Shown here one piece after another: positions 9,253 through 38,270 of a DNA stretch of 64,000 nt (its first letter is position 1; the number at the start of each line of letters is the position of its first letter). Both the position numbers and the translations under genes were made by a program. Below the pieces are notes generated by a model, which saw only the letters and a list, made by a program, of their open reading frames with translations, was not told the DNA's origin and made no database searches. Origin of the DNA: Planctomycetia bacterium (lineage in GTDB: Bacteria > Planctomycetota > Planctomycetia > Pirellulales > Thermoguttaceae); contig JAUNBJ010000003.1 in the NCBI GenBank assembly GCA_030535245.1, forward strand, positions 15,304 to 79,303, given 5' to 3'.

Positions 9253-11742
9253 ATGAGACGGTGCGTTATACTTTGTGTGTTGGCGGGATGGTGGCTGGGC
9301 GGAACGTTCCTGCAAGCGGACGAGACGGACGGGACGATAATTACGGGGACAACGACCATCCGCCAGGCCAGTGATTTGAGCGGGACGGTCACGCTGGATG
9401 GTGGGACGCTGAAGACTTCGACCGGGGGGATTACTCTTTCCAACGGTTTTATCATCAACCAGGCGGGCGGTACGGTTGACGTTGACCTTGCGGGGGGGGG
9501 GGTATTGGCAATCTCCGGCATGATTGCGGATTATGCGGGTGCGACGCCGGGAGCGTACGGAAAGTTGATTAAAACAGGGAGTGGAACGTTGAAACTTTCC
9601 GCAGTCAACACGTTTCTCGGAACGTATCAGGTGAATGCCGGGACGTTGGAGTTGGCGACAACGCGAGATATTTACACTCCCATCAAGATGGGTTCTTTTG
9701 TGGTTAACAACGGTTCCCTGTTACGGATTACGGCTCAGAACGCATTTGGAGCCAGTATCGGTTTTCCAGATATGGTGACACTCAACAGCAGTACGCTATC
9801 GACAACGACGGAAGCGTTTGCCAACATTGGCCCAATTACGCTGAATAGCGGAACGATTCTCTCCGACGGCTTACCGACGAACAATAACGTGGCGAACTAT
9901 TCTTTTAACGCCATGATTACCGCGACGGGAGACAGCACGATTTCTGCTGCTCGAATTGCTTTTCGGGACGGATTTGGCGATGGAAACAGTGGAAAAATCA
10001 ACGTGGTGGGGGCCACGGACAAACTGACTATTTCGTCGGAATTGCATTTTATCAATTCGCGGACGATCGAAAAGCTGGGGGCCGGAACGTTGGTTCTTTC
10101 CGGACAATATACAACGCATAGTGCACAACAAAATTTTTCCCTAAAAGTCACGGAGGGAACGCTTCAATTAGGAGGCGGAACGGCAACATCGACGTACGAC
10201 TGGAGCAACTGTAGTCAGTTGACAGCGATTTCGTTTGAGAACAACACCAACGCGAAAACGCTGGCGATTGCGCAGGCGGTGGATTCCCAATTTACACAGG
10301 CGGTGGCGATTTCCAGCAGTGGAATCACGCTTTCCAATCTTGTTTCAGGGACGACGGCGGAATTTTCCAACGTGACGGGAACAAGCGGCGTGACGCTTAC
10401 CAAAGCGGGGGCGGGGGCGGTGAAACTTTCGTCCGGGACGGCATTTGCGGGGAATTTGCAGGTGGAGGCGGGAACGCTTCAACTGACGACGGTTCCGGCC
10501 AACGGAACGACGTTGACGCTGAACGGCGGGGCGTTGGATTTGGCCCTTTCTTCGGCAGGAACGCTGAGCAACACGATCGTGTTGAATGGGGGGACGATTT
10601 CCGTCACGGGCAGCCCCCTGACGATTGGCAGCGGCAGCACGATTACCGGGGATATGGTAAAGACCGGAACCGGAGAGCTGGTGCTTTCCAACACGCAATC
10701 TACCGGAACGGTGACGGTCAACCAGGGGCGTCTGATACTGGACACGTCGCGTGGCAGCGGAAGCCAAAAATGGGGCAACTTTACGGTGAACGAGGGGGGC
10801 GAGCTTTACTTTAGCGTTGGTAACGCATTGGGGGTTTTGGCGGCAATCCAGAGTTTGCCCGATCAGGTGACGGTCAACAAGGGGACGATTATAAACGGTT
10901 TTGCGAGCCACACAAATATCCCGACCCTGTTTTTGAACGATGGGCGTGTAACCATCGCAACGGCAACGGACAACGGTTCTTCCAATTTAGGGAATTACTG
11001 TCTTGCCGGGCCGGTGATCGCAACGGGAAACAGCACGATCGACGCGAATTATGTTTCTGTCCGTGGTGATGTGAATACGGTTACTTACGGAGGAGAAACC
11101 AGCGGAGCGTTCCGTGTTTCCGGAGAAAATTCGGTGTTGGATTTATCTTCCATCATTCGTAAATACGGTGGTGGCATAACGGCCTTGACCAAATCGGGTG
11201 AGGGAACGTTGAATTTTACGGGGGGATTGGCGAATGGCATTGGTTTTAATGTGGACGCTGGTACGCTGAATCTGGGAATGACGAAAGGGACGGAGAAATT
11301 GTCCGGAGTTACGGTAAAATCGGGCGCTGAGCTTGGAATCATTGCCGCCGATCAGGAGATTGCCGGGACGCTGGCGGTGGCAAGTGGCGGGACGCTTTCG
11401 TTTGCGTTAGATCCGGACGCGATGGCTTCGCTGACGGCGACGAATTTGACGTTTGGCGACGATGCGGTGCTTCTTTTCAATCTGAGTGATGATTTTATGG
11501 AGAAGGTGACGTCGCAGACGCGTTTTGATTTCCTGACGGTGACGGGGAGCAACGGGCTTACGTATGAGAAGTTTGCGGAATTTGTGGGGCAGAACGCGAC
11601 GTTGGCGACGTATTTCATACCGACGTTGGAGGGGGGGAGTTTGAGTTTGTTGGCCAACGCTGCGGCGCTTCCGGAGCCGACCAGTGGGATGTTGTTGCTG
11701 ATGGGGATCGCGTTCATGCTGCGTCGTCGCATTCGGAGGTGA
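9253..11742 (+). CDS. Large PEP-CTERM surface protein with multiple passenger-type repeats
   Basis: An 829-residue secreted protein with signal peptide (MRRCVILCVLAGWWLGGTFLQA), a long beta-helix body and a PEP-CTERM tail (LPEP, hydrophobic helix, LRRRIRR). At least five autotransporter-associated repeats are visible, including LIKTGSGTLKLS (about residue 105), LTKAGAGAVKLS, MVKTGTGELVLS and LTKSGEGTLNF. There is no beta-barrel domain. ATG at 9253 is chosen because AGGAG lies six bases upstream; an ATG at 9235 is also in frame. A G9 homopolymer at 9492-9500 falls in codons 80-83. The gene sits between two DUF1559 genes in the same direction. Confidence 0.85.
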   Translation: MRRCVILCVLAGWWLGGTFLQADETDGTIITGTTTIRQASDLSGTVTLDGGTLKTSTGGITLSNGFIINQAGGTVDVDLAGGGVLAISGMIADYAGATPGAYGKLIKTGSGTLKLSAVNTFLGTYQVNAGTLELATTRDIYTPIKMGSFVVNNGSLLRITAQNAFGASIGFPDMVTLNSSTLSTTTEAFANIGPITLNSGTILSDGLPTNNNVANYSFNAMITATGDSTISAARIAFRDGFGDGNSGKINVVGATDKLTISSELHFINSRTIEKLGAGTLVLSGQYTTHSAQQNFSLKVTEGTLQLGGGTATSTYDWSNCSQLTAISFENNTNAKTLAIAQAVDSQFTQAVAISSSGITLSNLVSGTTAEFSNVTGTSGVTLTKAGAGAVKLSSGTAFAGNLQVEAGTLQLTTVPANGTTLTLNGGALDLALSSAGTLSNTIVLNGGTISVTGSPLTIGSGSTITGDMVKTGTGELVLSNTQSTGTVTVNQGRLILDTSRGSGSQKWGNFTVNEGGELYFSVGNALGVLAAIQSLPDQVTVNKGTIINGFASHTNIPTLFLNDGRVTIATATDNGSSNLGNYCLAGPVIATGNSTIDANYVSVRGDVNTVTYGGETSGAFRVSGENSVLDLSSIIRKYGGGITALTKSGEGTLNFTGGLANGIGFNVDAGTLNLGMTKGTEKLSGVTVKSGAELGIIAADQEIAGTLAVASGGTLSFALDPDAMASLTATNLTFGDDAVLLFNLSDDFMEKVTSQTRFDFLTVTGSNGLTYEKFAEFVGQNATLATYFIPTLEGGSLSLLANAAALPEPTSGMLLLMGIAFMLRRRIRR
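9492..9500 (+). repeat. G9 homopolymer tract in surface-protein gene
   Basis: Nine consecutive G within codons 80-83 of the PEP-CTERM protein gene. Slippage by one base would shift the frame near the N-terminus and stop translation. Confidence 0.7.
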
Positions 11743-33362: not shown

Positions 33363-35675
33363 CTACCGTTCTCCCCTGGAACGAACCACCCGCTTCCCCA
33401 GCAACAACCCCAATACCAGCAACACCCACGCCGCCGGCTCCGGAACACTCGAACCGCTGAAACCGCGAAGCGACAGCCCCTCAATGGCGGTATAATTGGT
33501 AAAGTCCCACGCAAAATACGTCGCCAAATCCGCAAACACTCCCAGCTGAACCCAGCCATCGCCAAGGTATTCCGCCGTGTAATCCGAGTTCTCCGTCAGC
33601 CACAAAGCAAACGCTTCTCCCCCGGCATCCGTTAGATTGGACACACTCAACGCCATCACATAAGGATCGCCCACAGGAAGAATCTCGATTGCCCCAGACG
33701 TGGAATCGCCCAAACCGCGAAAGCCGGAATCCATGGTGTAAGCGTTTTCCTGCACGTTGTTCAGCTCAATTTTCAACGCAGAGGAACCGGTCGTGTTCCC
33801 GGAAACGTTCCAGATTTTGCTGTTGTTGGTGATGGTGAAGCCTGAAAGATCGCTGGCCGTACCAACTTTCAAAAGTTCGTAAGACGTGTCCGCCGCCGTA
33901 AAGATTCCCGACGAGGATATTTCCACGATTTTCTTACCCAATAGCTCCGCCTTGCCTGTAAGCGTGACCGTTCCGAATTGACCATTGTTTACAAGAAACC
34001 GAACCTCTCCCCCGGTGCTTGCGTACAGATTAACCGCCTTCGCTTCCCCGCCCGAAATCACAAACGTCGCCGTGCCGGTCGCATCAGAACTCCCGGACGT
34101 GCGAGCCAAATAGATCGAGCCGCCATTGGTCGTCACGTCTAAAAGCCCCCCTTCCAAATGATACGTCCCCGTCGAACCCGTTTGCCGGGCAACGTAAAAT
34201 TCGCGATATTGCGTGCTCACCGTACCCACCTTCACCGTTCCCCCCGTCTGGGTGAACGTTCCCTGACCATTTTCCCCAATGACAAGATTCTTCCCCGTGG
34301 ACAACGTTCCCTCGCTTAACGTCAACGTGCCAACCGAATCGGTACCCGTTCGAGCAACGTACATGCTGTCGGTGGTCGTGAACGTGCCTCCGGAAATCTC
34401 CAGCGTCCCCTTCCCGCCGTTGAGTCCCACATTCACAAAATTCACGGAGGAAAACGTTCCCCCGGTTTGCGTAAACGTGTTCTCGTTCGCCGAACCGTTT
34501 CCGAGGATAAACGTATCGACGTTCATGCCCGTCCCCGTCACATTAATGGAACCGCCACTCATCGTAACATGCCCTACGCCCGTGGAAGAACCTCCCATAA
34601 AAAACTTGGCCGCAGAAATACTCCCGCCCGAAATCGTGAGCGTTCCAGTACCAGCTTTTCCCACGTAGAAACGACCTTTCACGTCGATTTCACCCGCCGT
34701 CATATGCAACGTTCCATTCCCATCGTTCCCGACAAAAAAACCGTTTCCGTCGTTTTCGCCCGTTTGCGTGGCGGTGATTTTCCCACCGGAAACGTTCATG
34801 ACCCCCACGCTACCGGCAACATTTCCAATTCGGATATTTTCCGCCGTAATCTCGCCGCCCGATACGTTGAAATTCCCCGTCGTCTTTTGATTGGAAACGT
34901 TAATATTCTTGCCACCCGCTTGGCCCGTTCCATCGAACAGCATCGTCCCCCCCGACATGTTGAAATATCCCTCAAAATTGGCGGTCGTCTGGAAAGTGAG
35001 CGTTCCACCGGTAACGTAAAACCCCGCGCCGTCTCCAGAGGCACTAAAATTAGGATGGCTCGCGTAATTCAATGTGACGTTTGCGTTGTCCGCTACCTCA
35101 AACCGAGATTTCGTCGAATCCGCAAAACCCGAGGAAGCCGTGACGACAGCCGTTCCGCCAAACGTGATTTTACCATCATCCTTCATCTGGATTTTCGACA
35201 CCGTGATCGTGCCGTTCGTGATGCGATTTTCCACCTTGGAACCCATGAAATTCATGGTAAGATTTGGCGTATTCATCGTCAGCGTCCCGCCGGTCTGGAT
35301 AAACCCTGCCCCGGTGTGAATCGTAAATTGCGTCGCGTTGGGGTTCACAAGAAGCTCCCCGCCCGTCAGCCGAAGCACCGTGCGGTTGGCATACTCCGGT
35401 TTATCTCCTGGGTTACTGCCCCCGTCGGAAGTCAGAAAGAATCCCGTTCCAGAAGAAGTTACCGTCCCGGAGTTGATATAAATTCCCTGATACGCCTTGC
35501 TGTAATCCACCCCCAGATACCCCGAAACGTCCTGCGAAAACGGCGAACTGCCGCCGCTCCATGTACTGTCGGTCAAATTTCCGGTCGTCCCGGTCCAGGT
35601 CGTATCGGCAAGCACCGCATTTCCAGCCCAAAAGAACGTCGTTGTAGCAAGCAACACGCAGATAAAATTTTTCAT
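33363..35675 (-). CDS. PEP-CTERM surface protein with Ser/Gly/Thr beta-helix repeats
   Basis: A 770-residue secreted protein with signal peptide MKNFICVLLATTTFFWAGNAVLA. The body consists of about 20 short repeats of the type NVSGGKITA, TMSGGSINV, TQTGGTFSS and TISGGSISA, as in adhesin-like beta-helices. It ends in VPEP, a hydrophobic helix and VRSRGER, a PEP-CTERM signal. ATG 35675 has GGAG nine bases upstream; two in-frame ATGs precede it. It lies downstream of GH16 and upstream of DUF1559 gene 3, repeating the order seen at 5766-9180. The gap before it carries operator-like repeats. Confidence 0.85.
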   Translation of the reverse strand: MKNFICVLLATTTFFWAGNAVLADTTWTGTTGNLTDSTWSGGSSPFSQDVSGYLGVDYSKAYQGIYINSGTVTSSGTGFFLTSDGGSNPGDKPEYANRTVLRLTGGELLVNPNATQFTIHTGAGFIQTGGTLTMNTPNLTMNFMGSKVENRITNGTITVSKIQMKDDGKITFGGTAVVTASSGFADSTKSRFEVADNANVTLNYASHPNFSASGDGAGFYVTGGTLTFQTTANFEGYFNMSGGTMLFDGTGQAGGKNINVSNQKTTGNFNVSGGEITAENIRIGNVAGSVGVMNVSGGKITATQTGENDGNGFFVGNDGNGTLHMTAGEIDVKGRFYVGKAGTGTLTISGGSISAAKFFMGGSSTGVGHVTMSGGSINVTGTGMNVDTFILGNGSANENTFTQTGGTFSSVNFVNVGLNGGKGTLEISGGTFTTTDSMYVARTGTDSVGTLTLSEGTLSTGKNLVIGENGQGTFTQTGGTVKVGTVSTQYREFYVARQTGSTGTYHLEGGLLDVTTNGGSIYLARTSGSSDATGTATFVISGGEAKAVNLYASTGGEVRFLVNNGQFGTVTLTGKAELLGKKIVEISSSGIFTAADTSYELLKVGTASDLSGFTITNNSKIWNVSGNTTGSSALKIELNNVQENAYTMDSGFRGLGDSTSGAIEILPVGDPYVMALSVSNLTDAGGEAFALWLTENSDYTAEYLGDGWVQLGVFADLATYFAWDFTNYTAIEGLSLRGFSGSSVPEPAAWVLLVLGLLLGKRVVRSRGER

Positions 35676-35744
35676 TAGAATCATCTCCAAAAGTTTCATT
35701 CCAGGAACTGTCGATTCACAACGCTTTCTATTTTAAACCGATAA

Positions 35745-37034: not shown

Positions 37035-38270
37035 ATGAAATCCCTTCGACCGTCCATTTCCGTTTTCATGCGAATCAACCATGAAAGTATGCGTGGTATT
37101 CTTCGCGGCATCCTGCTCTATGAAAAAGTAAACGGGCCGTGGGATGTCCGCCTGGAGCTTGAAAACCAATATTGGGAAAACGACTGTGCACTACCGAGCA
37201 TTCCCATCGCTTCCAACCCCTTCCCCGACGGAATCATTGCGTGGGGAAACAACGCGACGACCGCAAAGAAACTGCGACGGGCCATCCGAAAGAAAATCCC
37301 CGTTGTTCTGATCAATCCCTGGGAAGAATACGACGAGCTTCCCGAATTTCATCGTTGCGTCCGAATCGCGTGCGACTCGTTCACGGTCGGGCAGTCTGCC
37401 GCCGAATTTTTTCTTGAGAAAAACTTTCGCAATTTTGCCTACGTCGGAGCACGAACCAACGTTATCTGGTCCCGAAAACGGGGCGAGGGTTTTTGTCAAA
37501 CGCTGACGGATCGGGGGTATGTTCCCATCGTTTACGAATCGTTGGAAAAATCCACCCAACCCCCCCCCCCCGAAAAATCCTCCCAATCCCAACCCTCAAA
37601 AAAAGCCGATGAAATCCGGCTCCGTAAATGGCTCCAAAACCTTCCCCCACGAACCGCGATTTTCGCCGCGTTGGACATGCGGGGCAAGCAAATCATCGAC
37701 TGCTGTTCCAGCCTTGGAATCCCCGTTCCCGATGCAATCAGCGTGCTGAGCGTTGATAACGACGAGTTCCTCTGCCAAATGACCACCCCGTCGATGAGCA
37801 GCATTCGTCTCCATCTCGAACGGGCAGGATGGCACGCGGCGGAAATGCTCCACACCCAAATGAAGGGCCAAAAAACCGAAGAAAAAACGTATTATTACGG
37901 AGTGTGCCGGATCGAATCTCGCGGCTCAACCGAAATCGTCGTCGCCGACAACCCCATGGTGGTGGAAGCGGTGGCCTACATCCGAAACCATTGCAGCCAG
38001 ATGATCACCGTCGCCGACGTGGCCCGGCAGTTCCCCATTTCCCGACGAACTCTGGAAAAGAATTTTCGTGACGAAATGGGACATACCCTCTTTCAGGAGC
38101 TGCTTCGTCAACGGCTGCGGAAATTAGCCAGACTGCTGTCCGAAACCGACATTCCCCTGACGGAGCTGGCCCCTTTATGCGGGTTTGCCAACGACAGTTA
38201 CATGGGGAAAGTGTTCCGAAAGTATTACGGCCATACGCTCCTGGAACACCGACGAAAAGCCAAAGCCTGA
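37035..38270 (+). CDS. XylR-like AraC-family regulator 3, with C12 tract
   Basis: A 411-residue regulator with the same architecture as regulators 1 and 2: sugar-sensor domain (ISVFMRINHESMRGILRGIL; TAIFAALDMRGKQIIDCCSS; ISVLSVDNDEFLCQM) and C-terminal AraC domain (VARQFPISRRTLEKNFRDEM; LAPLCGFANDSYMGKVFRKY). Codons 176-179 are CCC CCC CCC CCC, a C12 homopolymer in a low-complexity linker (STQPPPPEKSSQSQP) absent from the paralogues. A one-base slip would remove the DNA-binding half. ATG 37035 follows CAGGAGCCGCC. It is divergent from GH16, surface-protein, DUF1559 and lipoprotein genes. Confidence 0.9.
   Translation: MKSLRPSISVFMRINHESMRGILRGILLYEKVNGPWDVRLELENQYWENDCALPSIPIASNPFPDGIIAWGNNATTAKKLRRAIRKKIPVVLINPWEEYDELPEFHRCVRIACDSFTVGQSAAEFFLEKNFRNFAYVGARTNVIWSRKRGEGFCQTLTDRGYVPIVYESLEKSTQPPPPEKSSQSQPSKKADEIRLRKWLQNLPPRTAIFAALDMRGKQIIDCCSSLGIPVPDAISVLSVDNDEFLCQMTTPSMSSIRLHLERAGWHAAEMLHTQMKGQKTEEKTYYYGVCRIESRGSTEIVVADNPMVVEAVAYIRNHCSQMITVADVARQFPISRRTLEKNFRDEMGHTLFQELLRQRLRKLARLLSETDIPLTELAPLCGFANDSYMGKVFRKYYGHTLLEHRRKAKA
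37560..37571 (+). repeat. C12 homopolymer tract in regulator 3
   Basis: Twelve consecutive C, exactly four Pro codons (176-179), in a linker between sensor and DNA-binding parts. It is the longest homopolymer I noticed in the window. Confidence 0.8.

Follow-up and report, generated by a model that had tools for sequence, protein, structure and literature searches.

Phase variation by homopolymer slippage has been studied mostly in host-associated Proteobacteria and Campylobacterota. Regulators can be subject to it, as are Campylobacter flgR and flgS and Bordetella bvgS, the last through a poly-C tract, and the promoter of Neisseria porA has a poly-G spacer. In Neisseria, Campylobacter and Helicobacter, intragenic poly-G and poly-C tracts set the reading frame of genes, often those for surface products, at many loci per genome (PMC5084427, PMC2823697). 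The planctomycete tracts described here resemble these poly-G/C systems in lying within genes, often for surface products, and in occupying many loci. They differ in their host, in a flank, shared by many tracts, that is locked to the G strand in both coding directions, and in their targets, which are PEP-CTERM, autotransporter-repeat and DUF1559 prepilin proteins.

The window, a 64-kb stretch of the genome G000, contains a run of twelve cytosines (C12) inside a regulator gene. It is the longest homopolymer of the window, where a first-order model with the window's composition predicts about 0.04 runs of C or G of length at least 12 per 64 kb, and the only other G/C run longer than eight bases is a G11 tract in a large secreted ORF. 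The regulator is of the XylR type, with a Peripla_BP domain followed by an AraC HTH. Among solved structures it is closest to the E. coli xylose operon regulator (4fe4/4fe7, E 1e-42), which has the same architecture, a periplasmic-binding-like sensor joined to an AraC HTH, and lacks the proline insertion at the loop.

Features of the window discussed in the text, in window coordinates.
Feature	Position	Strand	Basis or remark
XylR-type regulator gene, 411 aa	37035-38270	+	sensor + AraC-type HTH; domain search, structure match
Peripla_BP_3 sensor domain, residues 123-299, contains C12	37401-37931	+	domain search
Direct repeat copy 1, GAAAAATCC(A/T)CCCAA, 15 bp	37545-37559	+	read directly from sequence
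C12 tract encoding Pro176-179; assembled in frame	37560-37571	+	read from sequence
Direct repeat copy 2, GAAAAATCC(A/T)CCCAA, 15 bp	37572-37586	+	read directly from sequence
AraC-type HTH (HTH_18), residues 330-407, lost after any tract frameshift	38022-38255	+	domain search
Surface-protein ORF near regulator; G004 homologue has G11 leader tract, window copy none	33363-35699	-	
In-frame G11 tract, some 80 codons from the start of a large, secreted ORF of beta-repeat-like type (ATG 9253, to 11742)	9492-9502	+	

The sequence-only reading had placed the tract in a linker between the sensor and the AraC domain. Its count of exactly twelve cytosines in frame is borne out, as are the four prolines, which belong to the peptide STQPPPPEK. 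The placement is not: the tract lies within Peripla_BP_3, which rules out an inter-domain linker. The predicted cost of slippage stands. A one-base slip leaves 192 residues (C13) or 237 residues (C11), a two-base slip 238 or 191, and every one of these products lacks the HTH; a three-base change alters only the number of prolines. The tract is therefore a repeat of slip length within coding sequence whose product is off when the frame shifts, which is the first mark of a contingency locus. As in flgR, flgS and bvgS, a one-base slip is predicted to remove the regulator and with it the output of its regulon. Unlike those proteins, the planctomycete one is an AraC/LacI-type sugar regulator, and its tract is not conserved and is known from one assembly.

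Alignment with 29 homologues places the site in a loop that immediately precedes the segment RLRKWLQNLP and is free to vary in sequence and in length. None of the 29 has a tract there; the absence claimed earlier for the paralogues is thus confirmed and extends to all of these proteins. Among them is an orthologue from the same genus (L002), 62–65% identical, which reads EPANEKISQKQDEIRL at the site, and E. coli XylR shows a gap opposite the proline insertion. A comparison with related genomes had been proposed in the sequence-only reading; its outcome is that the tract is not kept at the orthologous site. Such conservation is usual for evolved switches, though not strictly required. No second genome of the window's species was found with which to compare the regulator tract.

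A pattern search of the whole G000 assembly retrieved all G/C runs of at least ten bases. There are 48 (22 are ten bases long, 15 eleven and 11 twelve) and no run reaches 13, although the tract-bearing genomes are fragmented assemblies in which lengths near 12 may be off by one. The distribution is nearly flat and then stops abruptly, which could reflect biology or assembly; by extrapolation roughly 2.5 runs of twelve were expected. Assemblies from metagenomes can miscount long homopolymers. The G000 tracts examined lie mostly within contigs and have distinct flanks. Runs of more than 50 C in two other genomes (G046 and G022) are probably sequencing artefacts. Inside genes, away from their starts, three runs of twelve occur. 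Two of them (L035 and L076) are frame-broken, each lying between the two halves of what is apparently one repeat protein, in differing frames, and the third is that of the regulator (L071), which is in frame together with the mid-gene tracts L046, L057, L065 and L070. The long G/C runs of this genome evidently change frame, inside genes too.

The explanation that we prefer, with a probability of about 0.68, combines a real, recent and mutable proline run in the regulator with a second group of tracts, in the leaders of exported proteins, as the evolved switches. For the regulator, we lean slightly toward regarding C12 as an incidental mutable site. It would be a recent, mutable stretch of proline codons in a variable loop at the surface of the XylR-type sensor half. 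A one-base slipped-strand change would switch the regulator off by truncating it before the HTH, the reverse slip would restore it, and three-base changes would be silent, in a host genome that would both tolerate and exploit G/C runs of 10–12.

The surroundings of the tract fit a recent low-complexity expansion of this kind. The copies of the 15-bp direct repeat bracket it on both sides, the loop is free to vary, and CCC is the preferred proline codon: it accounts for 14 of the 20 prolines outside the tract (18 of 24 with the tract included), against 27% in the pooled genes of the window. This share is the highest among well-sampled window genes, in most of which proline codon use is different. 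With about 70% CCC, four CCC codons in a row are expected in about one of every four PPPP. The repeat, the codon preference and the freedom of the loop in length and sequence across homologues would also suit plain neutral growth of a Pro/Ser/Gln low-complexity loop, by tandem duplication and use of the preferred codon, that has left an effectively stable tract. The in-frame state and the low complexity of the loop fit such growth as well. We nevertheless regard it as rather unlikely, since the two other intragenic 12-base runs of G000, both G tracts, are frame-broken, so that runs of this length look unstable. By comparison with those tracts C12 is probably mutable and would slip at an appreciable rate, and the scatter in frame of the long G/C runs of the genome makes slippage at C12 plausible. 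Loss of mismatch repair as the cause is ruled out: G000 encodes a full-length MutL, as do nearly all of the relatives that were searched (three gave only weak matches), so that slippage does not go unchecked.

It is unlikely that C12 is itself an evolved contingency locus, at which reversible loss of the regulator would shift expression of the adjacent surface-protein and DUF1559 genes in a subpopulation. Its length of 12 matches the switch tracts of the genome, and a slip removes the HTH. Further support may come from the sister genome G004 (public record JAUNBF010000031.1, "Planctomycetia bacterium"), where the regulator orthologue and the neighboring DUF1559-type and surface genes match the window locus, in a partly rearranged order. 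There the regulator has no tract, and the surface gene adjoining it has an in-frame G11 leader tract (MKMFQNVLGCLALMLMSGGGVGYADYVW), as if the locus may switch through different genes in different species. One locus is, however, too few for a conclusion. Against an evolved switch in the regulator are the absence of the tract from the 62–65% identical orthologue L002, its in-frame state, its position in mid-gene, unlike that of the leader tracts near the start, and the absence of the GTTAA flank that many of those tracts share. The sequence-only reading's phase-variable regulator thus survives only in part: slippage is plausible, given the frame scatter of long runs in the genome, whereas a lineage-specific tract in a hypervariable loop, lacking the shared flank and a start-proximal position, differs from the convincing switches of the genome.

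The evolved switches of our preferred explanation would be the leader tracts, in which a G/C run stands between the start codon and a signal peptide or prepilin signal, and slippage would set the reading frame and so turn synthesis on or off. Twenty-nine of the 48 runs in G000 lie 4–66 nt after an ATG, nearly always one with a Shine-Dalgarno-like sequence; the tally leaves out L071 (the regulator gene, read in a wrong frame) and L055 (doubtful) and includes L031, which has no clear Shine-Dalgarno sequence. Downstream of the 29 tracts comes a type IV prepilin signal or a stretch resembling a signal peptide, and in some leaders the tract falls within that stretch. Read along the coding strand, some runs are of G, giving leaders like VLICGGGGxIG, and others of C, giving leaders like M..ILPPPPxL. 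The products include proteins with autotransporter-type repeats (PATR, TIGR02601), PEP-CTERM proteins, laminin-G-like proteins and DUF1559 prepilins, and several belong to no family. For the prepilins, a role of the tracts as promoters was considered and rejected, there being no start codon between the tract and the 11-letter protein segment that follows it.

With frame judged from the best start codon, chosen by rule, and signal peptides judged by eye, seven of the 29 leaders are on, nine need an added base and 13 need one removed, which is no departure from an even spread. In contrast, 54 homopolymers of 6–8 bases in the downstream ORFs (41 kb) leave the frame intact, which argues against general indel error. 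Orthologous leaders keep the site of the tract and differ in its length: G11 in L059 is G12 in L097, and C10 in L038 is C12 in L088. The site is likewise kept in L032, L034 and L093, with C11, C10 and C12. The prepilin L061 has G10; in its G004 orthologue L082 the run is G12 and a flanking base is missing, and both genes are off. In G016, paralogous leaders that are nearly identical have either G10, which is in frame, or G11, which is off; their identity is 98% before the tract and 87–90% after it. The samples from G016 and G004 were picked by tract length or motif and so are not unbiased for frame. Length changes at kept sites are evidence for slippage over evolutionary time, and from them we infer switching within populations. 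The leader tracts thus show the marks of contingency loci: a repeat at the 5' end of genes for surface products, frames that are scattered where those of other homopolymers are not, and a site that is kept while its length changes. They point to a large, apparently undescribed on/off switching system in this planctomycete and its relatives, where dozens of such runs head surface-protein genes and most stand in the off frame, and this is a stronger claim than a switch in the regulator.

The leaders scored as off might still be translated, if ribosomal frameshifting or transcriptional slippage yielded a fixed in-frame share. Such programmed recoding would suit the 22 of 29 off-frame states in G000 and the off-frame G11 that is the commonest length in G016. 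It would not lead one to expect tracts that differ in length between orthologues and between near-identical paralogues, or C runs that serve equally with G runs, and we hold it to be quite improbable. That the tracts are homopolymer errors of assembly or sequencing in genes that are really all in frame is very improbable: the metagenome assemblies are fragmented, poly-G artefacts are known and some relatives have C runs of more than 50 bases, but the same leader sites recur in separate species assemblies, all three frames occur, and the homopolymers of 6–8 in the same ORFs, though shorter than the tracts, are intact.

Many tracts have a common arrangement on the G strand: GTTAA, a gap of 3–10 nt, G(n), a second gap of 0–7 nt, and (TAGAA)TAGG. 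This shared flank, GTTAA...G(n)...TAGAATAGG, stays with the G strand in genes of either orientation. Among the leaders of G000 and G004 together, 15 of the 28 that are G-coding and 8 of the 17 that are C-coding have GTTAA on the 5' side of the G run, and one and none, respectively, have the mirror image. GTTAA followed by G9 gives 28 overlapping matches in G000, where the reversed pattern gives 1, and 121 in G004, where it gives 8. The same combination occurs, in some cases at low counts, in G001, G003, G005, G007, G015, G016, G026, G027, G031 and G035; none of the 23 genomes searched from other families has it. Conservation of GTTAA at the protein level is ruled out, because the motif is found in either of two codon phases and keeps to the G strand where the leader is C-coding; the flank is tied to the DNA strand and not to the protein.

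Several pairs of leaders bear on how the element moves. The 61-nt leaders of L036 and L063 are nearly identical as far as the tract; beyond it the two genes are wholly different, as if leaders had been exchanged there. In the pairs L066/L082, L048/L083 and L043/L119, the genes are about 85% alike over the 46–51 bp that surround the tract, and in at least two of these pairs a DUF1559 prepilin is matched with a secreted protein unrelated to it. The flanked tract may spread as a short cassette.

Some runs lie elsewhere. Four intergenic copies (L050, L055, L060 and L062) have the form TTGACA-N3-5-G10-12-TAnAAT with a spacer of 14–17 and look like slippery-spacer promoters; as candidate promoters with a poly-G spacer they resemble that of Neisseria porA. 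At the 3' ends of L049 and L069, G10 and G11 lie inside the PEP-CTERM sorting signal. L069 loses its frame there, and with it the basic tail; sorting to the surface might thus be switchable.

In the open literature that was searched, no paper joins planctomycetes or DUF1559 with this kind of phase variation. Homopolymer phase variation is already known as a kind, and within that literature the planctomycete setting and the shared flank appear to be new. The sequence-only reading is probably right that control of this kind would be new for planctomycetes, and the leader-tract family makes a better case for it than the regulator. By a narrow balance of probability, this planctomycete family has made part of its surface-protein and prepilin repertoire subject to on/off control through an element that works in either direction, GTTAA...G(8-13)...TAGAATAGG, and that is seemingly maintained or spread as DNA; in the window's species slippage would also have reached a transcription factor and possibly PEP-CTERM signals and promoter spacers. 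The strand-locked flank raises the question of why a slippage tract needs a fixed DNA neighborhood in either gene direction. If the proposal is true, automatic annotation will probably take many leader-tract genes for truncated ones or miss their starts, and the cells of one uncultured planctomycete population would differ in the surface and pilin-like proteins that they make.
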